Origin: Planctomyces sp.
GTDB lineage: Bacteria > Planctomycetota > Planctomycetia > Planctomycetales > Planctomycetaceae
DNA length: 45,181 nucleotides
Reading direction: 5' to 3'
NCBI GenBank assembly: GCA_016795105.1
Contig: JAEUIH010000061.1
Coordinates: forward strand, 1 to 45,181
Of this stretch, positions 7,612 to 44,225 are shown in pieces. A program made the translations under genes and the position numbers. The notes beneath the pieces were generated by a model. It had not been told where the DNA came from and did no database searches. It was given only the letters and a program-made list of their open reading frames with translations. Within the stretch, counting starts at the first letter, position 1. Each line of letters starts with the position of its first letter.

Positions 7612-8130
7612 TCAACAGCGAATGACGGTTGACGACACCAGCGTCAGCCCCACACTCAAACAAACTGGAGATTGAATTCGTATAGACGTATCAGTCTTAG
7701 GGCGATTTCGCACCAATTGCCCCGGAAAACACAGCGAAATGGTCGGTCTACTCGCCTTTCGAACCGATGCTGTGATATTCATCCTGCTCTTTGAAGCAGG
7801 GACCGTGGTTGAACCGAGCGGTCGATGCTGGCAGCCACAAGGAATTGCGTGGGTAACGGGTGATCCCAGCGGATACGTCACACCACTTGAAGAGCTCTCT
7901 TCTTCCTGATGTTCATGATTCTCAGCAATCGCGCAGACAGCATGACTGTGCCCCTCATGTCCATTAGCGTTCAGATGCTCGTGATCATGGTCACAACAAG
8001 GACACGCCTGAGTGAGTTCATGAATGCAGCAAACGGTGCCATCACTGCGAAGGCAAAGCGTTGCATTGGCCCACAATCCATTGAGGATTTGGGACGCGAT
8101 CAACAGCGTTCCTAGCAGTGTTCTGAACAT
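7612..8130 (-). CDS. Cys/His-rich exported protein, family member 1
   Basis: 172 residues. The ATG at 8130 has GGAG upstream and begins a signal peptide (MFRTLLGTLLIASQILNGLW). The mature part contains TVCCIHELTQACPCCDHDHEH, a His cluster (NGHEGHSHAVC) and CGCQHRP, and ends ...STVIRC. It is one of seven short exported Cys-rich ORFs in the window, each the first gene before a transporter or small exported protein; here YnfA follows after 172 bases. A metal-binding periplasmic protein or a metal-sensing leader ORF are both possible. No family recognised. Confidence 0.6.
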   Translation of the reverse strand: MFRTLLGTLLIASQILNGLWANATLCLRSDGTVCCIHELTQACPCCDHDHEHLNANGHEGHSHAVCAIAENHEHQEEESSSSGVTYPLGSPVTHAIPCGCQHRPLGSTTVPASKSRMNITASVRKASRPTISLCFPGQLVRNRPKTDTSIRIQSPVCLSVGLTLVSSTVIRC

Positions 8131-8298
8131 TCCGACATTCTCCAGCAAACGAACATACTCTGTTTTCGACTCGACCAATCATGTTCAATCATTACTGAAT
8201 CACAGTCAGGCAAACTTGATGCTGCCACTGAAATCTGCCCAGACTGCCTGAATTGGGTTGAGCAGGCAAAGTCACGGCCGCATCGTTGTGTTTCAGAG

Positions 8299-8940
8299 TT
8301 AGTGATCATGCTTAACGGCAAAACCAAGCTTCTGAAGCCACTCCGCGCGTTTTTCTGCCGCTTCATGCCCTGCACATTCGATCGTTCGAGTTTTGACGCA
8401 GCGAAATGTTACGTCCGTATGACCTTCGTCAGCACTTTCCTTGAATTCGCAGCCAAGTGCTTTGCAGACGACGATGAACTCAGCACTGGTCCCTGCTTTT
8501 TCAAAGTGCTTCTCAATCCACTCTTCGGCCTGAAATGAGATGACTTCCATTTCTTCGTCATGAGCATGTTTGTGGGCGTCATCGTGTTCTTCATGATGCT
8601 CAGGATCTTCGCTGTGCAAGGTTTCGCAACCAGCATCGCTCAACCAATCCTGCCACTTGTGAACCAATTCCTCGGATTGCAGAGTCACGAGCGTCCAGCG
8701 TGGCTGCTGAAAAGTGACATCTATATGTCCGTCGTGGGATTCAACCTTGGCTTTGCACCCAAGTTTCGTCAGCGCCTTTTCAAACGCAGCGCCCTTCTTG
8801 GGATCATCAAACTCTTTCGTGATTGGCTCCGAAGCCCGATACGCAAAAACGAAGGTTTCGTTCTCATCTGCCGCGATCGACGAGGCAGTCATCGTACTGA
8901 TGAGCCCTGTCATCAATGTCATCAATTGCAATAGTTTCAT
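8299..8940 (-). CDS. Exported two-unit metal-ligand-rich protein (copy B)
   Basis: 213 residues with a signal peptide (MKLLQLMTLMTGLISTMTAS, cleavage near SIAADE). Two related units follow. The first runs from about KLGCKAKVESHDGHIDVTF to DAGCETLH, the second from ALGCEFKESADEGHTDVTFR to KLGFAVKHDH. A linker between them is acidic and His-rich (EDPEHHEEHDDAHKHAHDEE). The unit pattern is LGCx-(8)-HxGHxDVTFx and later a WL/GF-x-x-x-H ending. It is paralogous to the gene at 9030-9626, which lies immediately upstream in the operon direction. Metal binding in the periplasm is inferred from His, Cys and acidic residues. No family recognised. Confidence 0.78.
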   Translation of the reverse strand: MKLLQLMTLMTGLISTMTASSIAADENETFVFAYRASEPITKEFDDPKKGAAFEKALTKLGCKAKVESHDGHIDVTFQQPRWTLVTLQSEELVHKWQDWLSDAGCETLHSEDPEHHEEHDDAHKHAHDEEMEVISFQAEEWIEKHFEKAGTSAEFIVVCKALGCEFKESADEGHTDVTFRCVKTRTIECAGHEAAEKRAEWLQKLGFAVKHDH

Positions 8941-9029
8941 TCGTCTACGCTCTTTTCCTAAAAACTCAGACTTCACGCCTCTGATGAACTCGTTCGACAG
9001 TCGAGCGAGTCTTATTGGCCCACAGGCCA

Positions 9030-9626
9030 TCAGTGAGCATGTTCCGTCTGAAATCCCTTTTTCTCCAGCCAGGTTTGCAATGAATGTGCTTCATCATGAT
9101 CGATGCAAACCAGGTTTCGACGCGAGGTACAACGGAACCTGACGTCGATATGACCGTCATGTCCGCCTTTGCGGACTTCACATCCCAGACCTTTGCAGAT
9201 CGCAACGAATTCGTCGGCCTTTGCTCCATCCTCGAAATGTTGCGATTGCCATTCAGATTGCATGTATTGCACGGCAACGGCATCTCTTGACGAGGAATGA
9301 GCGTGTCCATGCAGAGTCTCGAAGCCATTCTTATTCAGCCATTGTTCCCAGCGGTCAGCATTCTCATGGGATTCCAGAGTGACCTCCCGCCATTGCACGG
9401 AACGAAACGTCACATCCGAATGGTTACCGTGTCGATTCACTTTGGTTTCACAACCCAGTTTCCGAAGCATTGAAAGTTTCTTTTCCGCATCAGCATCATC
9501 TTCAGCATGAAGACTTTGCCACTCCTTTGAACGAAAAGCGACTGACTCCTCACCCTCGGACGCCGTCGTCACGGAGTTGGCGATTGAAAGAACTGCAATT
9601 GCGAACAATGTGGCTCTCACTAACAT
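9030..9626 (-). CDS. Exported two-unit metal-ligand-rich protein (copy A)
   Basis: 198 residues with a signal peptide (MLVRATLFAIAVLSIANSVT). It holds the same unit twice: LGCETKVNRHGNHSDVTFR through NKNGFETLHGHAH, and LGCEVRKGGHDGHIDVRFR through EKKGFQTEHAH. Each unit carries a Cys, an HxxH-type cluster, a DVxFR strand and a final HxH. Four copies in two adjacent genes indicate internal duplication followed by gene duplication. It follows the RND pump after about 156 bases on the same strand, so it may be a periplasmic metal buffer or chaperone for the pump. This inference rests on ligands and position only. Confidence 0.78.
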   Translation of the reverse strand: MLVRATLFAIAVLSIANSVTTASEGEESVAFRSKEWQSLHAEDDADAEKKLSMLRKLGCETKVNRHGNHSDVTFRSVQWREVTLESHENADRWEQWLNKNGFETLHGHAHSSSRDAVAVQYMQSEWQSQHFEDGAKADEFVAICKGLGCEVRKGGHDGHIDVRFRCTSRRNLVCIDHDEAHSLQTWLEKKGFQTEHAH

Positions 9627-9782
9627 GACTGCGACTTTCTGAAATTGTCTTACAGCCGATACGTCCGGGACTGTAAAACGGATTGACTTGATCTCTGCTC
9701 GCGAACAAGGAACAGACGACGAAGTTCAGAGGTCGCACTTTGCGTGCCGTCGTTTAGATTCTTCTGTATCAAATGGATTGTT

Positions 9783-12700
9783 TCAGTGGCTCCCGGCTGT
9801 TGTGGCAAATTGGTGATTCTGAAGGGCCTCTTCATGAGGCTCGACCAGCGGAATCTCTTCCGCAGATTCACTAACCACCCGTTGAGCTGCTTTGAGACCG
9901 AATAGCCAGAACAGTGCTGGGTGGACGAAGAAGTCCAGAAGTGTCGAACTAATGACACCACCGAGTATCACAGTCGCGACAGGGTACAGGATTTCTTTGC
10001 CCGGCTCGCCAGCAGCCAAAACCAGAGGCACGAGTCCAATACCGGCTGTTAACGCTGTCATCAAAACCGGTGCCAGCCGTTCAAGCCCCGCTCGTATGAT
10101 CATGGAATGCGACCATGTCTCGCCTTCATATTTCACCAAATGCAGGTAGTGGTTAAGCAGCAGGATACCGTTTCGAGATGCGATGCCTGCCAGTGAAATG
10201 AAGCCGACCATGGCCGCAATCGTCAGTGTCTGACCTGTCAGTACCAATGCTGCCACACTTCCAATAAATGCCATTGGCAATGCCGCCATGACCTGCAGAC
10301 TCAAATTCACCGACCGAAACATCGCATAGAGAGTCAGAAAGACGCCTACCAGAGAGACGACGAAGAGAACGCCGAGAATTCGACTGGCTTCTTTCTGACT
10401 TTGAAACTGGCCGCCGTACTCGACAAAGTAGCCTGGCGGAAGACTCGCAGCGATCGGATCCAACTTCTTCTGAATGTCTGTCACGACGTCGACCACACCT
10501 CGTTCGCTGACGTTGCACTGAAGTACGATGCGTCGTCGCACATTTTCACGATTGATTGTGTTGGGACCACCAGCCTCGTAGATGGAAGCAACAGATTCCA
10601 GAGGCACGGTGCCCCCTTCGGGCAGGTCTATTGAGAGTCTTCTCAGTGCTTCCATATCCTCGCGATTCTTGTTGTCAAATCGCACCAGCAAATCAAATGT
10701 TCTTTGGCCCTCAAGGACTTCGGACACCACAACACCATTCAGAGCCGTTTCTATGAACTGGTTCACCTGTCTGGCGGTCAGTCCATTCAAAGCCAGCTTT
10801 TCGCGTTTGAGTTCAATACGCATTTGTGGAATCAGGACTTGCGGTTCGAGCATGAGGTCCGCGACACCAGGCACGGACTTAATGGCCTGCTCCATTTCCT
10901 GAGCCTTTCGACGCAGCAGATCGAGGTCATCTCCGTAGATCTTGATACCAATCTGCGCCTTTACGCCGGACAACATATGCGAGATGAGATGAGAGATTGG
11001 TTGCTCGACAGCAGAGACGACTCCCGGGATATCGGCCATCGCTTCTCGAATCTCGTTGATCTGCTCTTCACGCGTCAGGTGCGAATTCTGATTGAGATCA
11101 ATGATGAATTCGCTGGTGTTCACACCTTCTGCGTGTTCATCCAACTCTGCTCTCCCCGTACGTCGCCCCACTCGAATCACATCCGGAACCTGCATCAGTC
11201 TCTGTTCACATCGCGAAGCAATACTGTTCGATACGGCGAGCGATGTTCCAGGAGGTAGAACAACGTTGAGCTGTATTGAGCCTTCGTTGAATGGAGGGAG
11301 GAAGTCTCGCTCCAAATTGAACACGAAGACTCCCGCAATGGCGACACAGCCCATAACCACCGCGAGATTGAGTCGCGGAAACGCAAGACTGAAGCGGATG
11401 ATTCGACTGGCGAGTCCCTTCAGGATACGAAGCAGAAATCCATCTTCACCATGCTCCGAGAGTTTTGCATTTCCCAGCAGTAGGTAGGAAAGCACTGGAG
11501 TCACTGTGAGTGAAACCAGAAGGGACGCGGCAATCGAAACGATGTAGGCCACGCCCAGCGGAGCGAAGAGTCGACCTTCCATCCCTGTCAGTGCAAACAG
11601 CGGAATAAATACGATGCAAACGATGATCGTGCTGAAGACAATGGAGTTGCGGACTTCCGTGCTGGCCTGAAACACAATCAGCAAAGGATGCTTTGGCTTG
11701 GTCGCGTGCCTATTTTCTTTCAGTCGACGGAAAATGTTTTCAACGTCAACAATCGCATCATCCACCAATTCTCCCAAGGCGACCGCGAGGCCACCCAGCG
11801 TCATCGTATTGATCGACATCCCTGCCGCTGCAAAAACCAGAGCTGTGATGACCAGCGACAATGGAATAGCAGTCAGAGTGATAAACGTCGTTCTGATATT
11901 CATCAGGAAAAGTACCAGAATGATCACAACGAGGATCACTCCGTCACGTAGTGCTTCGACGACATTCTCGATCGCTCGATCAATGAATGACTTTTGCGAA
12001 TAGAGAGGTATAACTCGCAGGTCCTTTGGAAGAGATGGGCCTAGTTCTGTAATCGCCCGAGTGACATTCTCCGTGACGGCACGAGTGTCGGCTCCTGGCT
12101 GTTTATTGATTGTCATCACGACGCATGGTCCACCAGACCAGGGAGCGGTTCCGATTTCGTTTTCGCCATCAATCTCAACATCCGATCGTTCGAACGCTGC
12201 GCTGTCGCCGCGTTTGACTTGCCCACCCGCAACGATCCGTGCTACCTGAGTCAACAAGACGGGGCGACCTTCCCGAATCGTCACAACGATCTGCTCAAGA
12301 TCCTCTACGGTCTGGATTCGTCCCAATGCTCTCACCAGCAGTTCATTCGGTCCCTGTTGATCAAGATATCCCCCCGTGGCGTTTTCATTACTGCTGACGA
12401 CAGCCTCCTTGACCTGTTCCAGTGTCACACCGAAGCGGAGTAATTCATCGGGATTGACGAGGACTTGAAACTGCTTTCTTTGGCCTCCCATCGTGAAGAC
12501 CTGAGCCACGCCGGGTATTGTCAGAAGTCGCTGACGAACCACCCAATCTGCAAGTGTGCGAAGTTCTAACGGATCCGTTTTTCCTCCGTCGCTGTACATC
12601 CCGAGCATCAGGATCTGACCCATGATTGAGGAAATCGGAGCAAGCTGTGGAGTGACTCCGTCAGGCAACCGTCCCTGCATCAGTTGCAGGCGTTCGTTGA

Positions 12701-13028
12701 CGACCTGACGGTCATTGTAGATGTCCGTGTTGAAGCCAAATTCGACATAGATCACGGAGATACCGACCCCCGATGAACTCCGGACTGCCTCAACGCCATT
12801 GGCCCCGTTGAGCGCCGTTTCGATCGGAAAAGTGATCAGAGATTCGACTTCCTCGGGCGAGAGACCTGGAGCCTCCGTCATCACGACCACTCGGGGACGA
12901 TTCAGGTCCGGGAACACATCGATCGGTGTAATAAGTGCGAGGTATGTGCCGTATCCGGTCACAAGAAGAGCTGCCGCAAGCACCAGCATTCGCTGGCGGA
13001 GCGCGAAACGAATAATTGCATTCAACAT
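9783..13028 (-). CDS. Heavy-metal efflux RND pump (CzcA/CusA family), pump 1
   Basis: A 1081-residue proton-driven inner-membrane pump that expels metal through an adaptor and a TolC channel. It shows the family start (MLNAIIRFALRQRMLVLAAA), PIDVFPDLNRPRVVVMTEAP (35-54), the large periplasmic loops, and in the fourth helix GELVDDAIVDVENIF (419-433) with the paired Asp at 423-424 expected for proton relay. This motif differs from the textbook CzcA and CusA signatures, so I do not assign a metal. RBS AAGGAG precedes the ATG. It starts 14 bases after the adaptor gene stop. Its C-terminal tail is acidic (EEIPLVEPHEEALQNHQF). Confidence 0.95.
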   Translation of the reverse strand: MLNAIIRFALRQRMLVLAAALLVTGYGTYLALITPIDVFPDLNRPRVVVMTEAPGLSPEEVESLITFPIETALNGANGVEAVRSSSGVGISVIYVEFGFNTDIYNDRQVVNERLQLMQGRLPDGVTPQLAPISSIMGQILMLGMYSDGGKTDPLELRTLADWVVRQRLLTIPGVAQVFTMGGQRKQFQVLVNPDELLRFGVTLEQVKEAVVSSNENATGGYLDQQGPNELLVRALGRIQTVEDLEQIVVTIREGRPVLLTQVARIVAGGQVKRGDSAAFERSDVEIDGENEIGTAPWSGGPCVVMTINKQPGADTRAVTENVTRAITELGPSLPKDLRVIPLYSQKSFIDRAIENVVEALRDGVILVVIILVLFLMNIRTTFITLTAIPLSLVITALVFAAAGMSINTMTLGGLAVALGELVDDAIVDVENIFRRLKENRHATKPKHPLLIVFQASTEVRNSIVFSTIIVCIVFIPLFALTGMEGRLFAPLGVAYIVSIAASLLVSLTVTPVLSYLLLGNAKLSEHGEDGFLLRILKGLASRIIRFSLAFPRLNLAVVMGCVAIAGVFVFNLERDFLPPFNEGSIQLNVVLPPGTSLAVSNSIASRCEQRLMQVPDVIRVGRRTGRAELDEHAEGVNTSEFIIDLNQNSHLTREEQINEIREAMADIPGVVSAVEQPISHLISHMLSGVKAQIGIKIYGDDLDLLRRKAQEMEQAIKSVPGVADLMLEPQVLIPQMRIELKREKLALNGLTARQVNQFIETALNGVVVSEVLEGQRTFDLLVRFDNKNREDMEALRRLSIDLPEGGTVPLESVASIYEAGGPNTINRENVRRRIVLQCNVSERGVVDVVTDIQKKLDPIAASLPPGYFVEYGGQFQSQKEASRILGVLFVVSLVGVFLTLYAMFRSVNLSLQVMAALPMAFIGSVAALVLTGQTLTIAAMVGFISLAGIASRNGILLLNHYLHLVKYEGETWSHSMIIRAGLERLAPVLMTALTAGIGLVPLVLAAGEPGKEILYPVATVILGGVISSTLLDFFVHPALFWLFGLKAAQRVVSESAEEIPLVEPHEEALQNHQFATTAGSH

Positions 13029-13042
13029 GTCTGGCTCCTTGA

Positions 13043-14596
13043 TTAGTGGTTATGTCCGGCGTGAGGATCGACGCCACCACCCGCTTTGTTTTTCAGAGCC
13101 ATTTGCATCTGGTGTGCTCCACGCTGAGCAACGATATCTCCGGGAAAGAGGGAGCCGTCACTGGCAATCACAGCATGTGAAGAATCACGGTATCTCACAT
13201 GCACGGGCACTCGATCAAAGTGCTTCCCATTCTGCTGAAACACAAACGATTCAGCACCTTCCCGCGCGATAGCCTCAACGGGCAGGACAATCTGGTCAGT
13301 CCATTCTTCGACCGGAACACGCACCTGAACTCGTTGTCCGGGACGGTACTTCCAGTCAAGGAACTTTTGACCATTGGGAGAAGGCATTTCTCTGGCAATC
13401 TCATTCGGCAGACGCACGAAGAACGACAGAGACCGAGACTCGACGTCAATATCACTGGCCGAATACACGAGGTCCAGGTTTTCCACGTTTCGAACAGTTT
13501 CCCCGCTTCCCTCAAAGAGAGCCGTAATTTTCCAGTTTCGCTCACCGCTTTGAGACAGCAATTCCAGATCCTGTTCGAAGGCGCTGCCTTGAATGTACAA
13601 CTCCGAGAAATCTGCAAGGACCGCAAGGGTCGTTCCCGCTGCAACAGTCTCTCCTTTGTGAACGAGCACTTCCTGAAGAATCAAGGGAGTGCCGTCTGTT
13701 TCCTTGTTGGCGACAAGGCTTCGTTCCTCAACGGCACTCGAATTGTGCTGCGGCTCGTCGGCCGACACGGCAGGGCCTCTTGTCATGGAAACTGGGCGGG
13801 TTGCCGTACTGGACAAATGCAACTCATCGTCCCCGTGCCCGTCACGACCAGGGGCGATGATCTGCAGATCTCGTAACAGACGCTTGTTTTTTGCGATGTC
13901 TTCGATTTGCCGTTCGGAGAGTCCATGGAGTCGGAGTGCTTCTTTCTGGGCATTCATCTGGACTTCCAGTTTCTCTTTGGCGTATTGGCGTTCCAAAAGA
14001 GTCTTCTGCGAAACTGCCCCAGCTTCCGTGGCCTTCGAAAGTCTTGCGATCTCTCTGGTCTCAACATCAAGCTCTCCGACCGTGCGCAACAAATCTGTCT
14101 GTGTCGAAACAAGGGCTTCGGCCGTGATTCGCAACTGGAACAAGAGTGTCCCGGGTTTCACCGCCTCTCCTTGAACGGCATGAACGTGCGTAATGACAGC
14201 AGCCATTGGTGTCGAAATCTCAACACGAGTCCGCCCTGGTCTTTCAACCACGAGGCCCGGCACCGTGATCGAACGGCGAAAAGTCTGCTGTTTCAGAGGC
14301 TGCAGGAATTCGGCTGCTAATCCGATGTTCCCCTGTGCCTGAACTGACAGTTCAAGAGTGTTGGAGTCATCGGAGCCGTGATCGTGACCGGCATGTGAGT
14401 CTTCAGCGGCAGATGCACCGCTGTGGTCATGTTCATCGATCGCTGACGTACTTTTTGTTTTGGAAATCGTCTGTCGAACAATCTCCTGGGCAGGTTGCCA
14501 CCAATGGGAGCGAGTTGCGACTCCTGCGACAACAGTCACAAGCAAGCCTATTCCCCAGATCCATCGAGCACGCGATGAGGGCGCAGGGTTCTTCAC
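13043..14596 (-). CDS. RND efflux periplasmic adaptor (CzcB/CusB-like) with His-rich ends
   Basis: 517 residues, starting with GTG (GGAG seven bases upstream). One N-terminal membrane anchor (about 11-30) is followed by a His/Asp-rich stretch (DEHDHSGASAAEDSHAGHDH), a lipoyl-like hairpin half (PMAAVITHVHAVQGEAVKPG), an alpha-helical hairpin, the second lipoyl half (VLVHKGETVAAGTTLAVLAD), a beta-barrel and a membrane-proximal domain. The C-terminus is also His-rich (GGGVDPHAGHNH). It directly precedes pump 1 and is its partner. The extra His tracts suggest the adaptor captures metal itself. Confidence 0.93.
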   Translation of the reverse strand: MKNPAPSSRARWIWGIGLLVTVVAGVATRSHWWQPAQEIVRQTISKTKSTSAIDEHDHSGASAAEDSHAGHDHGSDDSNTLELSVQAQGNIGLAAEFLQPLKQQTFRRSITVPGLVVERPGRTRVEISTPMAAVITHVHAVQGEAVKPGTLLFQLRITAEALVSTQTDLLRTVGELDVETREIARLSKATEAGAVSQKTLLERQYAKEKLEVQMNAQKEALRLHGLSERQIEDIAKNKRLLRDLQIIAPGRDGHGDDELHLSSTATRPVSMTRGPAVSADEPQHNSSAVEERSLVANKETDGTPLILQEVLVHKGETVAAGTTLAVLADFSELYIQGSAFEQDLELLSQSGERNWKITALFEGSGETVRNVENLDLVYSASDIDVESRSLSFFVRLPNEIAREMPSPNGQKFLDWKYRPGQRVQVRVPVEEWTDQIVLPVEAIAREGAESFVFQQNGKHFDRVPVHVRYRDSSHAVIASDGSLFPGDIVAQRGAHQMQMALKNKAGGGVDPHAGHNH

Positions 14597-14748
14597 TTTG
14601 AATCTCCAAGAGTGCGGCCACCAATACTGCGGCGCGGCAATTCAGTGGCATCGAGAAAAGGTCGAACAGTTCTGTCGTTCTGCCAAAAAGCAAATGGCAA
14701 AAATCAAGACAAAACAATGGTTGAAGAGACAGTCGGTCTCGTTAGCGG

Positions 14749-15198
14749 CTACACAATCCAGACCTGAGTCAGCGCGCGCGGGCTCGGCGATTGCGGCGGA
14801 GCACTTTTGATGGACATCAGCAAGAGCACTGACTGACTCGAAGCAGGTGGCAGGCTGAGTTGCTCCAGAGGCGATACCTCGGGTCTCAGGGCCATTTCTG
14901 GGCATTCAGGCCGCAGTGTTTCTGAGCAAATGTAGGTACAACGTTCCTCGTCGCATCGATGCCGATCGTCATCGGGGCAACAGGGCAAACCCGATTCGGG
15001 CGTGTCGCTACCACATTGCGGTAGGCCAGCTGGCGAATGGCATTCGTGATGCTTATGACCGGGACAAGGGGGCTGTGTTTCAGCAACTTGGACCGACTGT
15101 CTGCTCATCCCCACGTGCGCATGGTGCCAGCAACAGCCAAAAATGCTGTGAAACAGCATTGGCAGCAGCGTAGCGGCGATAGCCAGTGAACGAACCAT
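14749..15198 (-). CDS. Cys/His-rich exported protein, family member 2
   Basis: 149 residues with a signal peptide (MVRSLAIAATLLPMLFHSIF) followed at once by GCCWHHAHVG. Later Cys/His groups are PPCPGHKHHECHSP, LPCCPDDDRHRCDEERC and TYICSETLRPEC. The C-terminal half is Pro/Ser/Leu-rich, ending PSPRALTQVWIV. It is the first gene ahead of the adaptor and RND pump 1, with a 152-base gap. Role unknown: a secreted metal-binding protein or a metal-responsive leader ORF. Confidence 0.62.
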   Translation of the reverse strand: MVRSLAIAATLLPMLFHSIFGCCWHHAHVGMSRQSVQVAETQPPCPGHKHHECHSPAGLPQCGSDTPESGLPCCPDDDRHRCDEERCTYICSETLRPECPEMALRPEVSPLEQLSLPPASSQSVLLLMSIKSAPPQSPSPRALTQVWIV

Positions 15199-16206: not shown

Positions 16207-17730
16207 CTATTGTCCGCTGAGTGACTGGTCGCGAAGAGCACTATCAAACTCGGTGTCCCGAGTTGCATCAAGTCCGCCTACCAAAACTTGTCCGTCAAGG
16301 AGTGCCGTCGTTTTGGCGAGTTCGAGTTGCCAGCTGACGAATTCCTGGTTGGTGTCGAAATACGTTTTGCGTGCCACAAGAACCTGAAGAAAGTCGTACT
16401 CGCCAGCCTTGTATGCCTGCTCTGCCAGGTTGAGTGATTCTTCTGCTCTTGGCAGGATCTCCTGATGGTATTGATCGACAGATGCGGCTGCGGCTTCAAA
16501 CCCACTGATGGCTTCGGCAAGTCGTGACTCGATTGACAACTCTGTTCGTCGAACATCCTGCGAAGCCCGGCAGAATTCGGCCTGAGCGGCAGCGATATTG
16601 CCTTCGTTTCGATTGTGAATCGGCAGCGGTACGCCGATCTGAGTGTTCAACATCCCAGATCCTGTACCGTTATCACGGCCAGCGCCTACCATCAGCGAAA
16701 GGTTCGGAATGGCTTGAGCATTCTGCCGTTCGATATTTGCCCGAGCGCGGGCGAGCCGTGCCCGGGCTCCCTGCAGTTCGGGGCTTGATGCCAGCATTTG
16801 CGATTTGACTGTCTCCCAGTCTCTTCGTTCGGCGGAACTCGGCAGCAGTCCATCAAGGACGCCAGGGTCATTACCGGGCACACCGGCTGTTGCCATAAGC
16901 TGTTTCCAGGCACCCGTAAACGCGGCGTCAGCCTGTTGGCGTTGAAGTTGAATCTGCTTCAACTGGATTTCGGCCTGCAAGACTTCCGGACGAGTACCCT
17001 CTTTAGCGTTCAGGCGAGCTTCAGCAAAACTGACGCCCTTCACCGCGACAGTTTCGAATTCTGTAGCCAGATCCTTTCGCCGTTGTGCTGCAAGCGCTTC
17101 GTAGAACCGTTGGCGGACATCGGTAAGAACGCGAAGTCTCTGCGTCTCAACTTCCCAGAGCTGTGACTGAACTTCCTGACGCAGAACACGTTGATTCTTC
17201 GTCAGCTTGTCGCCAAGTACGAAGTCCTGTTCGATAAACGCGACATGTTGATCAGTGCCTCTGTCGGCGAGTTGACTTGCCTGATAGCCGACAACGGGAT
17301 TCGGTTTTCGCCCTACCTGATTTTGGTAGCCCATGGCTTTGTGAGCTGATGCCGAGGCCTGGAGGACTGCTGGGTTCTGCTGCAATGCAATGGACTCAAG
17401 GGCAGCCAAGGACCAACCAGCGTGCTCGTTGATTGGTTCTGTAGAATTGGAAGATTCGTCCAACACCGCTGTCATATCTTCAGTTACGGTGTACTGCACT
17501 GGGTGAATGCCGGACGTCTTCTGCGAAGAATCAACCTGCATTTCAACGTCATCATCGGATACCGGCTTCATTGATGGTTGAAGCTCAAGCGTTGAGGATG
17601 AAGCCAAAGTCGATTTCTGTGGCATCGTGCTGTGGGACATCCCGATATTGGATCGACCACTGGCACAACCGGCCCCAAATAGCATCAGCGTCAGTAACGC
17701 TGCATTTCTGCGTACAACCATTTTCCACAT
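16207..17730 (-). CDS. TolC-type outer-membrane efflux lipoprotein (CzcC/CusC-like)
   Basis: 507 residues with a lipobox (MLFGAGC, Cys about 22) and GGAG eight bases before the ATG. An extended low-complexity N-terminal part precedes the paired helical repeats of the outer membrane efflux protein fold: SLAALESIALQQNPAVLQAS starts the first and ASSPELQGARARLARARANI the second. IGVPLPIHNRNEGNIAAAQ is the usual strand-turn of this family, and AEQAYKAGEYDFLQVLVAR is the typical closing helix. It forms the trimeric exit duct for RND pumps. It is the only TolC-type gene in the window and may serve both RND systems. It follows a Cys-rich ORF by 61 bases. Confidence 0.92.
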   Translation of the reverse strand: MWKMVVRRNAALLTLMLFGAGCASGRSNIGMSHSTMPQKSTLASSSTLELQPSMKPVSDDDVEMQVDSSQKTSGIHPVQYTVTEDMTAVLDESSNSTEPINEHAGWSLAALESIALQQNPAVLQASASAHKAMGYQNQVGRKPNPVVGYQASQLADRGTDQHVAFIEQDFVLGDKLTKNQRVLRQEVQSQLWEVETQRLRVLTDVRQRFYEALAAQRRKDLATEFETVAVKGVSFAEARLNAKEGTRPEVLQAEIQLKQIQLQRQQADAAFTGAWKQLMATAGVPGNDPGVLDGLLPSSAERRDWETVKSQMLASSPELQGARARLARARANIERQNAQAIPNLSLMVGAGRDNGTGSGMLNTQIGVPLPIHNRNEGNIAAAQAEFCRASQDVRRTELSIESRLAEAISGFEAAAASVDQYHQEILPRAEESLNLAEQAYKAGEYDFLQVLVARKTYFDTNQEFVSWQLELAKTTALLDGQVLVGGLDATRDTEFDSALRDQSLSGQ

Positions 17731-17791: not shown

Positions 17792-18256
17792 TTACACTTG
17801 AAGGCGCGCGAGGGCGCTCCGCGGCACTGGCGGCGACGCCACATTGTGTCTTGATTGACCAGTCAAGAGCGCCGAGAAGCTGGAGGTCGACCATACTTCC
17901 GGTGTTCGTAAACAATCATCGCATTGAGTTCGCACGGGAATGGGCGATGGCGCGAAGACTGCGGCGAGAATCCGGGTACAGGCAAGGTTGCCTTCATGAC
18001 TTGGCAAATGCAACGGCGAAGCAGCGCTGTTGATGCTCAGACGAGAATTGCTGACGATTTCACTGCCATGAACGTGATGGCATGATGCTGTAGCGGTTTC
18101 ATGCTGACAGACCGCATCTACTGATGAGCACCGTACGGACGAACAGTCCGCACATCCGCATGGCACCGCTGATCGCCCAATCAGGCAGATCGCGAGGATC
18201 ATCGAAATGATGCGACTGTAAACGACCACGGGAGATCCATTCCGCTTGTGAATCAT
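17792..18256 (-). CDS. Cys-rich exported protein, family member 3
   Basis: 154 residues from the ATG at 18256; other starts are possible because the frame is open to 18355 without a signal sequence in that extension. A hydrophobic segment (IISMILAICLIGRSAVPCG) is followed by CADCSSVRCSSVDAVCQH, SCHHVHG and later RTQCDDCLRTPE. The tail is PPVPRSALARLQV. It is 61 bases upstream of the TolC-type gene on the same strand. Composition and position match the other Cys-rich ORFs that open transporter operons here, but sequence identity to them is low. Confidence 0.5.
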   Translation of the reverse strand: MIHKRNGSPVVVYSRIISMILAICLIGRSAVPCGCADCSSVRCSSVDAVCQHETATASCHHVHGSEIVSNSRLSINSAASPLHLPSHEGNLACTRILAAVFAPSPIPVRTQCDDCLRTPEVWSTSSFSALLTGQSRHNVASPPVPRSALARLQV

Positions 18257-21438: not shown

Positions 21439-21687
21439 CTAGATGTCACTGTCATTCAGGTCCACGCTGCCACTTGCGAGCAGTGCTGGGTCTTGAATCT
21501 CGCGAGTCAGCAAGGCGTGGCGTCCTTTTGTCGAAGCTCGGTTGTAAAACTTTGAGGTTCGAAGCCTCAACTGATACCGGTTGGCTATTTCAGTTTCGGT
21601 TCCTGAATCTGTCAGGAGTGAAAAGCATTGGGTTGTGACGATGCCCAGGACCAGTGATGAAAGAATGATCGAAAAACGAGACATCAT
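21439..21687 (-). CDS. Small exported protein with LRxRTxxFYxRA motif (copy 1)
   Basis: 82 residues; AAGGAA lies eight bases before the ATG pair at 21684-21687. It begins with a hydrophobic segment (SRFSIILSSLVLGIVTT). After a short spacer comes LRLRTSKFYNRASTKGRHAL. The ORF at 43437-43640 has LRNRTTRFYERA in the same place after a similar signal segment, so the two are paralogous. In both cases a Cys-rich exported ORF lies about 215 bases upstream on the same strand. No function known. Confidence 0.62.
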   Translation of the reverse strand: MMSRFSIILSSLVLGIVTTQCFSLLTDSGTETEIANRYQLRLRTSKFYNRASTKGRHALLTREIQDPALLASGSVDLNDSDI

Positions 21688-21910: not shown

Positions 21911-22336
21911 TTAACAAAGCAAGGCACAGAACCTGATATGGAGTCGTGGCGTAGACTGATTCGAACGAGGAGTCAATATGCGGCAGGATCTCTCGTTCGT
22001 TCTTCGATGCGGACCAACGGACGTGAGATCGTCGTCGATGACGTCGATCCGACACTGTTCAGTCTCTGCAATTACTGGCGAGCTCTCTGCACAGCATCTG
22101 TGTGAAGGTCCCGGTGCAGGCAAATCCTCGGAGCATACTGCGACTGATCGATGTTGGGTATGGCGAGTACTGTGCTTGTGCTTTTCACAACGACAGTGGT
22201 GTTCAGTTTCGTGTCTATGTCGACCGCCGTTGATATGACAGTCTGCGCTCAGGCAATGCTGATGCGTCAGGCAGATCCACTCCTGGCCCGCCAGCGACAA
22301 CAAAATCGCGAGAATTGTGTGAGCTTTCGATCGCAT
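21911..22336 (-). CDS. Cys/His-rich exported protein, family member 4
   Basis: 141 residues from ATG 22336; a TTG nine bases further upstream is also in frame. A hydrophobic start (AHTILAILLSLAGQEWICLT) is followed by HQHCLSADCHINGGRHRHET, HHCRCEKHKH and SHRCCAESS. The protein ends RLHIRFCALLC. The ending R-x-C-x-x-x-C is also found in the genes at 42897 and 43854. It is followed on the same strand by the small exported protein at 21439-21687, and this two-gene order recurs at 43437-44225. Confidence 0.62.
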   Translation of the reverse strand: MRSKAHTILAILLSLAGQEWICLTHQHCLSADCHINGGRHRHETEHHCRCEKHKHSTRHTQHRSVAVCSEDLPAPGPSHRCCAESSPVIAETEQCRIDVIDDDLTSVGPHRRTNERSCRILTPRSNQSTPRLHIRFCALLC

Positions 22337-23293: not shown

Positions 23294-23983
23294 TCAGGCA
23301 ATCCTTTTGGGAATTGAAACATCAAACGAATCCTGCATTTTCCGACTTGCGGTCCGAGATCCAAAATGGAAACGGATCAGGAGTTCAGTGGGTTAGATGC
23401 ACAGACTGTCGTCGCTCTTCACAGAATTCCGAAATTGTTACCAAGGTTTTCGAAATTCGGGGGAATCGCCGTAAATCTTGCGTGAATTGAACGTTTGGCA
23501 GTCAACTTGACTCAGGTCTATGGGAATCAAAAATGCCGCAATAGAATTTGGAACACCTTGGGTTGCGATCAAAGTTGTTGCCGTGAGCGAGACAGATTCG
23601 CGCATCGTCGGCGTTGTCATCAACATCAGCAACTGGTTCAATTTAAATTGCAGGCGCTCGATCAGCTTCGCGTTGCTGGACCTGAAGTGCCAGCCTCCGG
23701 TGTGCGTATTCGCACGGTCGAAATGCGATGGAAAATTCAGAAACTTCTCGTGAAGGAAACACGCACACTGAACATCCAAGTACGTGGCGACATTGGCCGA
23801 TGATCGCAAGTGACATGCTTAGCGGGCATCGTTCGATTCGGCATGTTCAGATTGGAAAATTGATTCATTGGCAGGTGGTGGCTCCATTTGGTGCAATCAC
23901 TGTCACCGTCTCTGTTTCCGTTGGAAACAGAACTTTCCTCACACTGTGCGGACAAATTCTTGTCTGCGAATTGGAGATTCATT
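23294..23983. other. Long divergent intergenic region
   Basis: About 690 bases between divergent genes. Short open frames occur on both strands but lack ribosome sites and protein-like composition. The plus frame ending at 23803 has a protein-like last third (LQALDQLRVAGPEVPASGVR) and could be a decayed gene end. A tight hairpin lies at 23911-23931. Confidence 0.4.
23911..23931 (+). promoter_or_regulatory. Tight hairpin in the leader of the gene at 23984
   Basis: TCTGTTTCC and GGAAACAGA form a perfect 9-bp stem around GTT, ending 52 bases before the start codon and followed by ACTTTCCTC. This could act as an mRNA leader structure, an upstream terminator or a dyad operator. Confidence 0.45.
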
Positions 23984-26137: not shown

Positions 26138-26187
26138 TCCATCTAATTATGGCAACATCAAATTAGAACCTCTCGAAGGATATGTCA

Positions 26188-26778
26188 ATGACAATGTCCG
26201 CTTCAGGAACGCCAGATCTGGGCGATATCTTTTGGAACGAGATTGCTGACCGGCTGCGATTCTTTATCCGCAGCCGCATTGAAGATTCTCATACTGCCGA
26301 CGATTTGGTTCAGGATGTCATTCTGAAGGCACAGCTAAATCTGCATTCTGCTCCGATGCACAAACTGTCTGCTTGGATGTTTCAAATCGCCAGAAACGTC
26401 ATCATTGACCACTACCGATCACGAAAGCATCGACGAGCGGCCCAATTGGACGACGAAACACCGATTGAAGAATCCGAAACAGTCATCGTCTCAGAATTAA
26501 GTGGCTGCATCCGACCGATGCTGGCACGGTTACCCGATGCGTCTCGCGAGGCACTGGAGCAGACGGATTTGGGTGAACTTACCCAAATCGAACTTGCCAA
26601 ACAACTTGGCCTTTCGGTGCCGGGCGTAAAATCACGTGTTCAGAGAGCACGAGAACAGCTGCGGACTGTTCTCGTGAGCTGCTGCGCTCCGAAAACGGGG
26701 AGTGATGGGAGTGTCGTCAGTCATGGCTGCGATTGTCTGCCGCCTGACTACTGCAGCAAGAAGTCTGGAAAATGCTGA
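26188..26778 (+). CDS. Second ECF sigma factor, SigZ-like with Cys-rich tail
   Basis: 196 residues from the ATG at 26188, chosen because AAGGA lies seven bases upstream; 26182 is also in frame but too close. Region 2 includes TADDLVQDVILKAQLNLHSA and MFQIARNVIIDHYRSRKHRR; region 4 includes ELTQIELAKQLGLSVPGVKS. The C-terminus has SCCAP, HGCDCLPPDYC and KKSGKC, a tail seen in SigZ-like factors, where Cys residues may sense metal directly. It lies 50 bases after the anti-sigma gene and overlaps the next small ORF (ATGCTGA). Confidence 0.88.
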   Translation: MTMSASGTPDLGDIFWNEIADRLRFFIRSRIEDSHTADDLVQDVILKAQLNLHSAPMHKLSAWMFQIARNVIIDHYRSRKHRRAAQLDDETPIEESETVIVSELSGCIRPMLARLPDASREALEQTDLGELTQIELAKQLGLSVPGVKSRVQRAREQLRTVLVSCCAPKTGSDGSVVSHGCDCLPPDYCSKKSGKC

Positions 26779-27789: not shown

Positions 27790-28200
27790 ATGTTTCATCG
27801 TATGCTGTCAATACTGCTGATCGGCGCGACCCTTTTGGGGCCGTCAATCTGCTGTTGCACTATGAAAGTGGCGAGTGCAGAATCTTCTGCACCAGTGTGC
27901 TGTTGCTGTGAACAGGATGATGCGGCGAAACAGTGTCCAGACGATTCCGATGGCAATCGCGAGCATGAATGCCCTTGTCGCAAGCATCAATCCGTGGGAG
28001 CAAGGCTTGATGATAGCCTGATCCTTCAGACGTCACCGTCTGTGAAGTGGATCATGGAACTCTCGGACATCTGCTCGCCGGTATTGTTCCGGCAAGCTGA
28101 TAGCGTGTCGCCACAAGGCGCGAGCTTTCTGCCAGGAAGATGCCCCCCACTGCAGGCGGGCAGAGCACTTCTGATTGCGCACGGCGTAAGTCGCTGTTAA
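27790..28200 (+). CDS. Cys-rich exported protein, family member 5
   Basis: 136 residues with a signal peptide (MLSILLIGATLLGPSICCC). Cys clusters follow: SICCCTMKV, PVCCCCEQDD and HECPCRKH. The C-terminal half is less charged and ends RCPPLQAGRALLIAHGVSRC. The start at 27790 could be moved to the ATG at 27802. It stands 235 bases before the lipoprotein that opens the second efflux operon, repeating the arrangement seen for the other Cys-rich ORFs. Confidence 0.65.
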   Translation: MFHRMLSILLIGATLLGPSICCCTMKVASAESSAPVCCCCEQDDAAKQCPDDSDGNREHECPCRKHQSVGARLDDSLILQTSPSVKWIMELSDICSPVLFRQADSVSPQGASFLPGRCPPLQAGRALLIAHGVSRC

Positions 28201-28435
28201 TCCTGGCGGCTCATCGGCATGCTGCCGCTGCTCAACTCGCAATGCATCGCGGTTGCGGCAATTGAGTACAGTGGCCGACGCCTTCCCGTTCTCCAGGCCA
28301 TCCCGACAGAAAACTGTCTGCGAGACAGCATTCGTTGCTCTCGCGCAAATGCTCCGCCTGCGGTGTGAGCACACTTTACTGTTACTTGAACTGCCCCGAC
28401 GCAATGCTGCGTTGGTGACTGTAAGGAGTCGCATT

Positions 28436-37629: not shown

Positions 37630-37641
37630 GATCCTTCGTCG

Positions 37642-39478: not shown

Positions 39479-39481
39479 GAC

Positions 39482-41041: not shown

Positions 41042-41043
41042 TG

Positions 41044-41562
41044 TTATTTCCCGGCTCGGACAAAGACTTTGCTGACAGCAAGTGAAAGGTTGCCCTGATC
41101 GTCCCGTTTCGCATTTCCCTGAACGACGACCTCAGACAATTCTTTGACACCCAACAATTCACGAGCATCGCCCGACACTGGTTTTCCGGTCTCATCGACC
41201 AGCTTGACTGTGGCGATGTTGGATTTCACGTCGTCCTGCTTGCAGCAGTAGTCCCACGGTGTTGGACAACCTTCATCATCAGCACAGTACGGCACCTTGA
41301 GATCCACAATGGTGAATGCCGCGATACCATCAACAAACGGTTTTTCTGATCCGCCGATGCGTCCTGCAACGGTGATGGGTTTGTCGTTCTCGGCAGTCTC
41401 TCTCGCTGCGCCAACTGCGATTGCATCAGCGGGCTCTGTTGGCAGGATGTAGGCCGACGATGCGGCCGGCACAGCTGGCTTTGTTTCGGGATTACTCGTC
41501 CCTTCGCCGCAGCCGACAAGCGCGACCATAAATCCAGTAATCACTGTGTTGAAAATTCTCAT
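41044..41562 (-). CDS. Lipoprotein of the ABC exporter operon
   Basis: 172 residues; AGGAG six bases before the ATG. Lipobox (MVALVGC) followed by a Pro/Ala linker. The mature domain is beta-rich (ITVAGRIGGSEKPFVDGIAA, FTIVDLKVPYC) and resembles an OB-like fold, with a Cys-rich loop CADDEGCPTPWDYCC, a probable metal or disulfide site, and a closing strand (SLAVSKVFVRAGK). It sits between permease A and the adaptor with almost no spacing, so it likely works with the exporter. No family recognised with confidence. Confidence 0.78.
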   Translation of the reverse strand: MRIFNTVITGFMVALVGCGEGTSNPETKPAVPAASSAYILPTEPADAIAVGAARETAENDKPITVAGRIGGSEKPFVDGIAAFTIVDLKVPYCADDEGCPTPWDYCCKQDDVKSNIATVKLVDETGKPVSGDARELLGVKELSEVVVQGNAKRDDQGNLSLAVSKVFVRAGK

Positions 41563-41571
41563 AGATCACTC

Positions 41572-42726
41572 CTAAATTGCTTTCAAACAAACAGCCACCG
41601 ACTGTCGCAATGCCTTGACCGCTGGTGGCAGCGCGCCCAAAGCTCCGAGTAACAACCCAGCTCCGCATCCGACAACCAGAGCGAAGCTGTCTATTCGTAA
41701 TGCAAAGGCTCCCATCGTGAAGCGAATTGCGTGTCCATTCAGCACTGTCAGTGCAAAGACGCCTGCCAGCAGCGATGCGGCAGCGGCCATGACGACGCCT
41801 TCCTGAATGAGGCTCAACAGGATCGATCTTCGACGATATCCCACAGCCTGTAGAGTCGCGATTTCGCGAATGCGGCCGGCAATGGCCCCGTACATCATGT
41901 TCATACCAGCAAACAAGCCTGCGCCAGACACAAGCAGCACCACAAGCCACGCCAAAAGTCGTACAGGGCGATAGTACTGCTGGAGAGCGGCGTAAAACTC
42001 GGTCTCGCGGACGGCCTGAAGTTCAAGGTCTGTTCGCTCTTTGCAGAACAGAGTCAGCTCAGACGATGAACTTTGAGGAGGCAAGAGCAATGCAACCAGA
42101 CTGATGTCCTGTCGCTTTGTTGCCGCTTGAAAGTCGGACAGGCCGCACCAAATCTCAGACTCAAATGCTGTCCCCTCAGCCACAAATCGACCGCTGATCT
42201 TCCATTCCTGACCTTCAAAAGTGATCTTCTGCCCCACGGACAATTGAGACGGATCGGAGCCCAGTTTGGCTGCAGAAAGTTTCCCCGCCATCACTTCGCC
42301 GCGGCCCGGCCATGTTCCCTCAACCAGACGAACCTGGCGGCGAACCAGTGGACTGGTCTCAGTCACAGCTCGAATCAAGCCAAGCCCACCTTGTCCATTC
42401 TCCGTCACGATCCGCGTACCGAGGTAGATCTCCGGCGACGCGAATGTCACTCCGTATCGGTCAACGGTTCCTGCCACGCTCGAAGTCAACAGCCCCGGAG
42501 TTCGAGCAGCAATCGCAGAACTCTCGATGTTTTCGCCCGCTGAAACAGAATAGATCAGCACGACATCCGGATCACCACTGTCCACCAGTGAAACTTCGAG
42601 GCCACGAATGAATCCCACGACGACCATGATCAACAATACGACAATCGACAATGCCACCAGTGTCAGCCCTGATCGAACAGGGCGACGCGCGAGATTTCGA
42701 ATTCCGTATTCCCAGGGAAGCAGCAT
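41572..42726 (-). CDS. FtsX/MacB-like ABC permease (permease A)
   Basis: 384 residues from the ATG at 42726, where [20 protein letters not shown] matches the usual start of this family. A TTG at 42774 opens a 16-residue extension with no membrane character. One N-terminal helix ([18 protein letters not shown]), a periplasmic domain ([20 protein letters not shown]), and three C-terminal helices ([20 protein letters not shown] lies between). It is the first transporter gene of the operon, 170 bases after a Cys-rich ORF. Confidence 0.88.
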
Positions 42727-42896
42727 TGGATTTTGCACGCTGTTGTAGTTCAATTTGCCAGAGGCAATCTGCAATTTGCGTCGAGATGCGGAGCGGACGG
42801 TCTAAACATAATCCGCATGAGAATCGACCGGGGCCGCAATGGCTGGTCGGAAGCCACGGGAGTAACACCGTGGAAACAACCGGAGATCCGGAGCTA

Positions 42897-43328
42897 TCAA
42901 CAGGTCAGCGAACAGACGCGAACGCGCATGGACATGCCATGGTTCATTCGTCGTTGGGGCAAGTCATCAGCGGATGCTCGCAAAAATAGACTGAAACATC
43001 CCCGCATCAGCAGGTGGTCAGCCTTCAGACTGAGTGGCACGCTTACCGGTATGTCCTTCAGCTTAACGAGCTTACTTGGGACCATTCCGGAGCATGCACC
43101 CTGACAGCTACAACAATCTGTGTCATGATGATCAGGCGTCCCCGAATTCGATCTTTCAGAACTCGAATTGGACGTTTTCGCCTCTTGATGACAGTGTCGG
43201 CAGCATGCCTTCACCGGCTTCGAGGCAGTTTTGGAATGCGTATCAATAGCGCAGCAGTTTCCGGAAGTGCACGAAAACGTGCATAATACAACGGAAATGA
43301 TCAAAATGATGCTGATCAGCCGACGCAT
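42897..43328 (-). CDS. Cys-rich exported protein, family member 6
   Basis: 143 residues with a signal sequence (MRRLISIILIISVVLCTFSC). Cys groups follow: SGNCCAID, ACCRHCHQEA and DCCSCQGACSG, with His/Asp between. The end is MRVRVCSLTC, sharing R-x-C-x-x-x-C with the genes at 21911 and 43854. It is 170 bases upstream of permease A on the same strand and so occupies the first position of the ABC operon. Confidence 0.62.
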   Translation of the reverse strand: MRRLISIILIISVVLCTFSCTSGNCCAIDTHSKTASKPVKACCRHCHQEAKTSNSSSERSNSGTPDHHDTDCCSCQGACSGMVPSKLVKLKDIPVSVPLSLKADHLLMRGCFSLFLRASADDLPQRRMNHGMSMRVRVCSLTC

Positions 43329-43436
43329 GAAATGTTCCGCTCCAGTTTCTGAACGCTGAAAGCATACTTCGCGACAGTCGTATCGTCGAGTTCAATTAAT
43401 GAAACACTGCCGAAAAGACGACCGTCCCCTGCGATT

Positions 43437-43640
43437 CTACGCTCGTTCGACTCCGCCGTTGTGCAACCGAAATGAAACCGCAACTCCGGCCCGTTCGTAG
43501 AATCGAGTTGTGCGATTTCTTAAGTGTGGTCGGCTTGCCAGCATTTGCTGAGCACCTTGTTCACGATGCACGATGGGGATCGCCGGAACACAAACAACAG
43601 CACAAAAAACGACACTGATGATCAACCTGGAAACAGACAT
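43437..43640 (-). CDS. Small exported protein with LRxRTxxFYxRA motif (copy 2)
   Basis: 67 residues from the ATG at 43640, which has GGAG seven bases upstream. The start is a signal/anchor segment (MSVSRLIISVVFCAVVCVPA). PHLRNRTTRFYERAGVAVSF follows, matching LRLRTSKFYNRA of the ORF at 21439-21687. Both follow a Cys-rich exported ORF by about 215 bases. Function unknown. Confidence 0.58.
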   Translation of the reverse strand: MSVSRLIISVVFCAVVCVPAIPIVHREQGAQQMLASRPHLRNRTTRFYERAGVAVSFRLHNGGVERA

Positions 43641-43853
43641 GGGACGACTCCGATATTTTAGCGCATGCCGAGGCTGGAATGCGACGAATTGGTAGTGCAG
43701 TGTCAGCGACGATGCCGACGACGGGAATTCGGGCAGCGGCAGAGCCGCAGGAAGTGAGCTGCGGCGAATCACCGCAAAGAGGAAACTCCCAGCACATCGC
43801 TCAGAGTGACGAACAACTCGTCAGGAGAGGCGATGGCGAGTTTCATGAGCCCG

Positions 43854-44225
43854 TTAGCACAGCATACTGCAATACCGAACGTAAGCTGGTACGCCAACCA
43901 TTCGCAACCGTTCAGGTGGTCGAACGGTCTCCAAAACATCGGCATTTTGGAGGACAACATCCCTACTGACGCAGACGCCATCGAAAGTGCTTAAACTCGA
44001 TTGTTCGGAAATGAACTCTCGATGTCGCGTTGATGGATCGCCGGTACAGGAGCAAGGTGCCGACGGTAGCGATTCACTGCACTCATCAGTGCTGCAGCAG
44101 CCTTGTCCGTCGCAAGTCAGTGTCTCAGAACCATCAAGGCAACAGTCATGCTCGCACGACTGTTGAGGAATAACCTCGGACAGCAGTAACAAGCAGGCGA
44201 TGAGTTTTGGGATGAAGGTTGCCAT
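43854..44225 (-). CDS. Cys-rich exported protein, family member 7
   Basis: 123 residues with a signal sequence (MATFIPKLIACLLLLSEVIP). Cys groups: SCEHDCCLDG, TCDGQGCCSTDEC and APCSCTGD. It ends AYVRYCSMLC, sharing R-x-C-x-x-x-C with the genes at 21911 and 42897. It is followed by the small FYxRA protein at 43437-43640. It is the last gene before the integrase region. Confidence 0.62.
   Translation of the reverse strand: MATFIPKLIACLLLLSEVIPQQSCEHDCCLDGSETLTCDGQGCCSTDECSESLPSAPCSCTGDPSTRHREFISEQSSLSTFDGVCVSRDVVLQNADVLETVRPPERLRMVGVPAYVRYCSMLC

Follow-up and report, generated by a model that had tools for sequence, protein, structure and literature searches.

The DNA analysed here (the window) is a stretch of 45,181 nucleotides of Planctomyces sp. 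(contig JAEUIH010000061.1, assembly GCA_016795105.1, genome of 8.9 Mb), which carries seven short Cys-rich open reading frames, here called ORF1 to ORF7, in front of genes that include two RND pumps, a TolC-type protein and an ABC exporter. ORF5 lies on the plus strand and the other six on the minus strand. They encode 123-188 aa with 10-14 Cys each and a hydrophobic N-terminus, and their C-terminal letters, from ORF1 to ORF7, are STVIRC, TQVWIV, LARLQV, FCALLC, GVSRC, VCSLTC and YCSMLC. A preliminary description of the window had singled them out, and we found all seven at the positions it gave. We counted ORFs that encode 100-200 aa, carry 10 or more Cys and have a hydrophobic 12-mer close to the N-terminus: the window has 10, these seven included, far above the mean of 0.38 (maximum 2) in 60 dinucleotide shuffles; the further three begin at 23728 (+), 29839 (+) and 24122 (-). 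With the start codons chosen in this analysis the gaps to the next gene measure 61-232 bases, where 61-235 had been given. That each ORF comes first in its transcription unit, as was also proposed, is not established: ORFs 1, 5 and 6 begin 168, 92 and 108 nt behind a gene on the same strand. We establish here that ORFs of this kind are conserved in relatives, that they keep a type of partner gene, that a tail conserved up to the stop codon closes them, and that the gaps behind them are structured. Their key feature, seen only partly in the preliminary description, is a fixed distance between the last Cys motif and this tail, which we call the ruler and count in residues to the C-terminus.

In the window, ORF1 (7612..8130, minus strand) runs from an ATG at 8130 (a longer TTG start lies at 8178) and encodes 172 aa with 12 Cys; its last Cys motif, CGCQH (7825..7839, -), gives a ruler of 72 residues, and its conserved tail, GLTLVSSTVIRC (7615..7650, -), was also read in the relatives' loci L193 and L195. 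ORF2 (14749..15198, -; 149 aa, 11 Cys) is placed ahead of a CusB-like adaptor and a CusA-like pump (pump 1). Its last conserved Cys motif, CDEERC (C82 and C87; 14938..14955, -), has 62 residues from C87 to the C-terminus, and its tail is RALTQVWIV (14752..14778, -; right-justified family alignment). The adaptor (13043..14596, -), of the HlyD/CusB type, matches PF16576, and RND pump 1 (9783..13028, -) matches PF00873 and is CusA/CzcA-like by name only. ORF5 (27790..28200, +; 136 aa, 13 Cys), ahead of a YHS-like lipoprotein and the pump 2 operon, carries its last Cys motif, CPC, at 27970..27978 (+) and its tail, RALLIAHGVSRC, at 28162..28197 (+). ORF6 (42897..43328, -; 143 aa, 14 Cys) precedes a MacB/FtsX-type ABC exporter, whose permease (MacB_PCD/FtsX) occupies 41572..42774 (-); its last Cys motif, CCSCQGAC (43092..43115, -), lies 64 residues from the C-terminus, and its tail, GMSMRVRVCSLTC (42900..42938, -), follows the family pattern sGRxLRxLxxS[FLW]x[CIL]-stop.

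The remaining three are leader candidates. ORF3 (17792..18256, -; start uncertain, up to 18355) is ahead of an outer membrane efflux protein of the TolC type (16207..17730, -; PF02321 match). ORF4 (21911..22336, -; 141 aa, 12 Cys), with a CC 59 residues from the end and the tail IRFCALLC, and ORF7 (43854..44225, -; 123 aa, 13 Cys), with a CSC 63 residues from the end and the tail VRYCSMLC, agree with the ruler and tail of the others.

Families and partner genes

To find relatives, we searched 119 related genomes with the single proteins (E<=0.01; own genome counted, some matches broken by stops). ORF2-type proteins were matched in 33 of the 119 genomes, ORF6 in 20, ORF1 in 11 (two of which carry internal stops) and ORF5 in 10, whereas ORFs 3, 4 and 7 gave weak matches only, in 5, 6 and 5 genomes. 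For ORF4 and ORF7 this search returned no convincing relatives, and anatomy is what supports them. The ratio of nonsynonymous to synonymous substitution rates (dN/dS) was 0.25-0.47 in nine of ten pairs of relatives and 0.72 in the tenth, whose members are 88% identical. From these data we assign ORFs 1, 2, 5 and 6 to families of coding sequences found repeatedly across planctomycete genomes. The preliminary description had made conservation in relatives its own test: ORF, position and partner are indeed conserved for these four. Its single family of seven dissolved, as the proteins could not be aligned as one. With hhalign the ORF6 family aligns over its whole length with the ORF5 family (95%), the match between the ORF2 and ORF6 families is confined to 20 signal-sequence columns, and the ORF1 family has no match to the ORF6 family. 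The hydrophobic N-terminal segment is present in the aligned family members (read from the sequence, without a signal-peptide predictor). A structure model made from a shallow alignment of 12 sequences was poorly ordered past the N-terminal helix, with a mean predicted local distance difference test score (pLDDT) of 56 and a predicted template modelling score (pTM) of 0.23.

A profile built from 14 ORF6-type proteins matched at least 89 of 347 genomes of the class at E<=0.001. About 10-11 candidates were scored per genome, and the genome counts obtained with this profile, for class and phylum alike, are lower bounds. The class search gave 117 match rows, from which 14 weak partial rows were not fetched, two were discovery loci and one (L115) was dropped with its frame unset; the 100 loci analysed comprise 89 new ones and 11 already in the discovery set. 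When the phylum was searched (392 genomes), 2 of at least 27 matched genomes fell outside the class, both with partial matches and with no total given for the genomes outside it. None of the leader members scanned could be placed in a Pfam or NCBIfam family, and our literature search on such leaders, which left most subscription papers and preprints outside, found no report of these proteins.

Partner genes were counted in kept loci only, window loci and one own-genome paralogue included. Weak or broken matches were left out (L003, L007, L010-L013, L039, L052, L053, L061, L068, L070-L072, L075, L077-L080, L082-L085, L087-L091, and also ORF7, L076), as were ORF2 and ORF6 matches without an extracted locus; with L017 at a contig edge, 28 of 29 ORF2-type loci were readable. 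Of the 28 ORF2-type loci in which the next gene is visible, 26 have an adaptor homologue there and the other two a thioredoxin-like gene. ORF6-type members have the ABC permease downstream in 14/14 kept loci, two of them with an intervening ORF, and ORF5-type members a YHS-like lipoprotein in 7/7 (a 56% identical own-genome paralogue and the window copy included; two weak matches dropped). Behind the ORF1 type an adaptor is next in seven of ten kept loci; the window copy precedes YnfA instead. The names "YHS-like", for the window lipoprotein behind ORF5, and "thioredoxin-like", for a protein behind ORF1, were given by eye, and neither protein has a Pfam match. In 88 of the 100 profile loci the leader is followed by a homologue of some window gene (ABC permease 61, adaptor 23, one each of four others), and 10 of the remaining 12 (without L099 and L120) were scanned, giving an HMA domain in eight, PAP2 in one and no match in one. 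A Cys/His motif after a signal, on the same strand as a metal-handling partner, is what marks CutF-like leaders, and here such a motif follows the putative signal, with the role of the ABC permease taken from its island.

We also ran the comparison in reverse, from relatives of pump 1. Those in named genomes come mainly from planctomycete metagenome-assembled genomes (MAGs), such as a 96% identical one in Planctomycetaceae MAG-39 and a 71% identical one in a Fuerstiella sp. Of 14 loci from named genomes, 13 were usable (L204 is without its 5′ side), one of them proteobacterial. A leader or its tail stood before the adaptor in all 12 planctomycete loci with the adaptor's 5′ flank: the ORF itself in 11, and only its last 60 codons in L200, at a contig edge. 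In the proteobacterial locus (L203, Hyphomicrobiales), a Cys-cluster ORF at about 2883-3281 (+) lies before the RND adaptor and ends DLNRPPKSFA, about 42 residues past its last Cys; its best Pfam match has an E of 0.32. It is perhaps a proline-type, CutF-like counterpart of the planctomycete leaders.

The genes named FYxRA, which lie behind ORFs 4 and 7, had been listed among the partners, and this did not hold up: in four clear relatives (L218, L220, L231 and L233) no Cys-rich leader was recognisable by eye in front, leaving FYxRA unsupported as a conserved partner. The small FYxRA proteins themselves (window 43437-43772, -, and 21439-21687, -, and the four relatives) all have a hydrophobic N-terminus and share a sequence motif close to ARxHLRxRTxxFYxRA.

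The distance from the last Cys motif to the stop codon

Of the 100 proteins found with the ORF6 profile, 96 keep 59-69 residues between the last CxnC pair and the C-terminus (for all 100, median 64, interquartile range 63-65), while the stretch from the first Cys motif to the last CxnC pair varies over 45-83 residues. The C-terminal distance falls within 5 residues of its median in 96/100 and the N-terminal part in 55/100, a difference with a Levene p of 1e-11 that is optimistic because the 100 proteins share ancestry and were found with one profile. Four values fall outside 58-70: in L138 and L174 the rule took a later pair, L153 has a C-terminal extension and L190 an atypical motif. The ruler is 60-66 residues in all 14 ORF6 discovery members and in 28/28 of the ORF2 type; for L014, L035, L064 and L074, measured by the family motif, it is 62, 64, 62 and 66. 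It is longer in the ORF1 type (69-74, 10/10) and in the ORF5 type (71-73 from the CPC motif to the C-terminus, 7/7).

Conservation follows the same division. With the sequences aligned from their C-termini, the information per column in the ORF6 type (81 non-redundant sequences) is 1.88 bits for the last 14 residues, compared with 0.68 near the Cys motif and 0.19 for the linker between them. The corresponding values for tail, Cys motif and linker are 1.53, 0.51 and 0.19 in the ORF2 type (27 sequences), and those for tail and linker are 1.57 and 0.26 in the ORF1 type (10 sequences). The conserved tail runs up to the stop codon. Among the 100 ORF6-type proteins, G is kept at -13 in 90%, R at -12 in 68%, R at -9 in 72% and S at -4 in 80%. 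Many ORF2-type members end RAxxQVWx[LI]-stop, with Q, V and W at -5, -4 and -3 in 74%, 78% and 74% (n=27), the ORF1 type ends LTVxSTVVIRC-stop, with the final R-C in 10/10 aligned, and some ORF5 types end ILRAVNSLRC-stop. The RLQV-stop tail of ORF3 recurs in frames ahead of TolC in L195 and L205 but was not seen in L197, and the Cys spacing of ORF3 is irregular. The N-terminal Cys/His motifs GCCxHHxH and CPxxC are conserved as well in the ORF2 and ORF6 alignments.

RNA in the gap behind the leader

The gaps between leader and next gene fold more stably than shuffled sequence. Over 148 loci the mean z was -1.17 for the gap, whereas it was -0.16 for the stretch upstream of the leader, -0.25 for the downstream coding sequence and -0.32 for the leader body; after collapsing similar gaps the values were -1.40 (n=68) for the gap and -0.12 (n=66) upstream (p 4e-8). 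For two loci, L024 and L067, the RNA analyses took a leader start that lies too far downstream, which affects their upstream control only. The seven window gaps range from -1.1 to -2.7, among them -1.43 for ORF1-YnfA (7440..7611, -), -1.68 for ORF2-adaptor (14597..14748, -), -2.56 for ORF5-lipoprotein (28201..28432, +) and -2.67 for ORF7-FYxRA (43641..43853, -).

Hairpins resembling intrinsic terminators occur in 15 of 150 gaps, compared with 4 and 3 in the control stretches, a share on which we rejected them as a general device. Just past the stop, C exceeds G in the first 30 nt (0.33 and 0.25), as compared with the downstream gene and without a matched intergenic control; a Rho-type C>G bubble behind the leader stop is therefore only suggestive. 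The hexamer CTGCGC recurs in gaps and tail codons and at first looked strong as an RNA motif. It is partly due to permease coding and related loci, and it became weak after collapsing similar gaps (9 of 68 loci, shuffle mean 3.7). An Rfam scan of the window brought no family to threshold.

Proposed metal-sensing leaders, known systems and rival explanations

We consider it probable, from the pattern in these sequences, that the planctomycete ORFs are cis-acting, arrest-type metal-sensing leaders whose ruler is long and whose tail ends at the stop codon. The preliminary description had left the choice between a leader and a secreted metallopeptide open, and the fixed Cys-to-tail distance across an unconserved linker, together with the tail at the stop codon, favours the leader; ORFs 3, 4 and 7 are candidates on anatomy, ORF3 also on its short shared tail. 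What we infer beyond this concerns export, metal binding, stalling, and the direction and level of control. In the mechanism that we propose, the signal recognition particle and Sec would target the nascent leader through its signal sequence, and once the ribosome reached the stop codon the conserved tail, lying in the exit tunnel, would slow or arrest termination. By then the last Cys/His motif, which is some 60-73 residues nearer the N-terminus, would have cleared both the tunnel (roughly 30 residues) and SecYEG (roughly 17) and would, by our arithmetic, lie about 13-26 residues out into the periplasm. Binding of metal at this motif would alter the pull on the chain and with it how long the ribosome dwells on the stop codon; the change in dwell would alter the folding of the structured intergenic RNA, or the access of Rho to it, and so set the expression of the efflux gene.

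Several observations weigh against this proposal and should temper it. ORFs 3, 4 and 7, which have no clear families, are more weakly supported as leaders, and the shared ancestry of the profile matches makes p-values optimistic. A Pfam scan finds no metal domain in the ABC permease, the commonest partner, whose metal role is deduced from its neighbours in the metal island. Tail codons are biased, R-9 being CGC in 75% against 29% elsewhere, so part of the conservation of the tail may be at the RNA level, and the leader stop codons are mixed (TAA 40, TGA 36, TAG 24; n=100), which leaves no release-factor signature. As for the gap, the ribosome-binding site of the permease is unpaired to 0.45, against 0.44 with shuffled flanks, and only 7 of 59 ABC-permease loci fall below all 15 shuffles. 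Plain hairpins were found in 95/150 gaps, 59 upstream stretches and 103 downstream coding stretches. With pairing on average equal to that of shuffled flanks, masking of the Shine-Dalgarno sequence by a gap hairpin, the step known from CutF, is unsupported, and since hairpins are no commoner in the gaps than in downstream coding, a route through Rho or anti-termination is at least as likely.

CruR and CutF had been offered as precedents, and the likeness holds for the layout and not for the details. According to the CruR study, CruR of Bordetella pertussis (bp2923; DUF2946, PF11162) has a CXXC, then 45 residues and a RAPP three residues before the end; the spacing is conserved within one or two residues, five added residues strongly reduce copper control, CruR works without its export signal, and a few DUF2946 homologues are reported in planctomycetes (PMC9426467). 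Like CruR, the planctomycete leaders are small ORFs with a signal-like N-terminus heading a metal operon, poorly structured, with a fixed distance from Cys to a C-terminal motif and with partners in metal homeostasis. Unlike CruR, they have no RAPP and no DUF2946 match, their ruler is about 60-74 residues, their tail sits at the stop codon, and their export is predicted to matter: the principle of a fixed spacing is shared, the value of 45 is not. DUF2946 had no match at E<=1 in the seven window ORFs, 14 ORF6-type and 28 ORF2-type members, and none in the window's genome at E<=0.001; hhalign against planctomycete DUF2946 gave 0.2% for the ORF6 type (alignment A2) and 10.7% for a second leader alignment (A1). 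On these scans membership was rejected, and R-x-P-P was found in the last 15 residues of 0/151 proteins. DUF2946 itself does occur among the 119 relatives, with a match in 16, of which 12 exceed the cut-off. The loci read, 10 in number, all end RAPP or RGPP, so that RAPP-type and new-type leaders coexist in the class. In five of these 10 loci (L208, L209, L210, L211 and L215) the DUF2946 leader precedes pseudopilin-like genes (named by eye), and in L216 the protein after it looks Flp-pilin-like, again by eye.

For CutF of Rhodobacter capsulatus (cutFOG), the available text likewise gives 45 residues from the metal motif to the C-terminal motif, reasons that about 30 residues of ribosome tunnel and about 17 across the membrane place the metal site in the SecY vestibule, and proposes delayed co-translational export as the mechanism; its lists of CutF-like proteins demanded Pro-Pro in the last 15 residues and fewer than 150 aa, and its main text makes no mention of planctomycetes (PMC9973294). 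CutF-like leaders, which are exported and carry a Cys motif before copper genes, resemble the planctomycete ones, whose export is predicted, with RND parts among the partners and a structured gap. The two differ in that 60-73 residues would set the metal site clear in the periplasm, and in Pro-Pro, which only 5/151 planctomycete proteins have within their last 15 residues. A conserved C-terminal motif at the leader's stop codon, in ORFs tied to secretion, is what the NSP-stop and NAP-stop arrest peptides share with our leaders; as far as the consulted text goes, their stalling is reported with the stop codon in the A site, they were studied as monitors of protein localization and no metal motif is mentioned, and their tail motifs differ. 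In a 2024 paper on arrest peptides, Phycisphaerales and two further orders of planctomycetes are reported to carry LPPP leaders.

It is unlikely, in our view, that the ORFs are instead secreted periplasmic metal-binding peptides, metallothionein-like or chaperones, co-operonic with the efflux genes and acting in trans. A signal-like N-terminus, mostly 7-17 Cys, many His, partner genes in a metal island and the conserved N-terminal motifs GCCxHHxH and CPxxC would suit such peptides, but they offer no obvious reason for an unconserved spacer of 60-73 residues and a tail at the stop codon, each subfamily mostly keeps one type of partner gene, and the model, on its shallow alignment, has no confident fold past the N-terminal helix. 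That the proteins are trans-acting periplasmic regulators, acting on a sensor kinase or pump with the tail as a docking or Tsp/Prc-like protease signal, we regard as quite improbable. CzcI, a small metal-resistance protein upstream of czcCBA, is of this kind (PMC9973294). ORF6 does match it faintly (NF045614; E 0.0019), but at 18.8 bits against a cut-off of 100 and as one of 14 ORF6-type members at E<=1. CopL is another small metal-resistance protein found ahead of a metal operon; CopL and LpqS match two and three of 28 ORF2-type members (best E 0.012 and 0.014), and such weak matches establish membership in none of the three families. Hydrophobic C-termini do suit tail proteases, yet a degron or docking tail needs no fixed distance to a Cys motif, and no stop-codon tail is described for CzcI or CopL in the text available. 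Finally, we think it very unlikely that the conserved object is an RNA, attenuator or riboswitch-like and made of tail and gap, with the peptide incidental. The structured gaps, the biased tail codons and the enrichment of CTGCGC in gaps point that way; against it, the codon-position pattern and dN/dS indicate selection on the protein, tail residues also vary through synonymous codons, the hexamer excess shrinks once gaps are collapsed, and the window holds no Rfam family at threshold.

Taking the ORFs as metal-sensing leaders, we suggest, tentatively, that Planctomycetia may possess class-wide termination-stage arrest peptides, with tails such as GRxLRxLxxSFLC-stop, QVWxL-stop or STVVIRC-stop, whose ruler of 60-73 residues, spanning ribosome and translocon, would serve to read periplasmic metal; several efflux genes of an island would each have their own leader, as parallel sensors in one cell. 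If this is true, co-translational metal sensing would not be confined to proline-based leaders such as CutF and CruR: a large group in the planctomycetes would use it too, several times within one island, with a longer ruler and another tail. The fixed spacing yields a quantitative prediction, periplasmic exposure of the motif with the ribosome at the stop codon, and these leaders would be missed by Pfam and NCBIfam scans as made here or by a Pro-Pro filter.

Two further features of the window deserve mention. Between pump 1 and ORF1, at 8299-9626 (-), lie two tandem proteins with repeated Cys/His-containing modules, one of which was scanned and has no Pfam match. At 26182-26778 (+), Pfam identifies an extracytoplasmic function (ECF) sigma factor with a Cys-rich C-terminal extension, SCCAPKTGSDGSVVSHGCDCLPPDYCSKKSGKC, which we take to recall the metal-sensing sigma factors of the CorE type.

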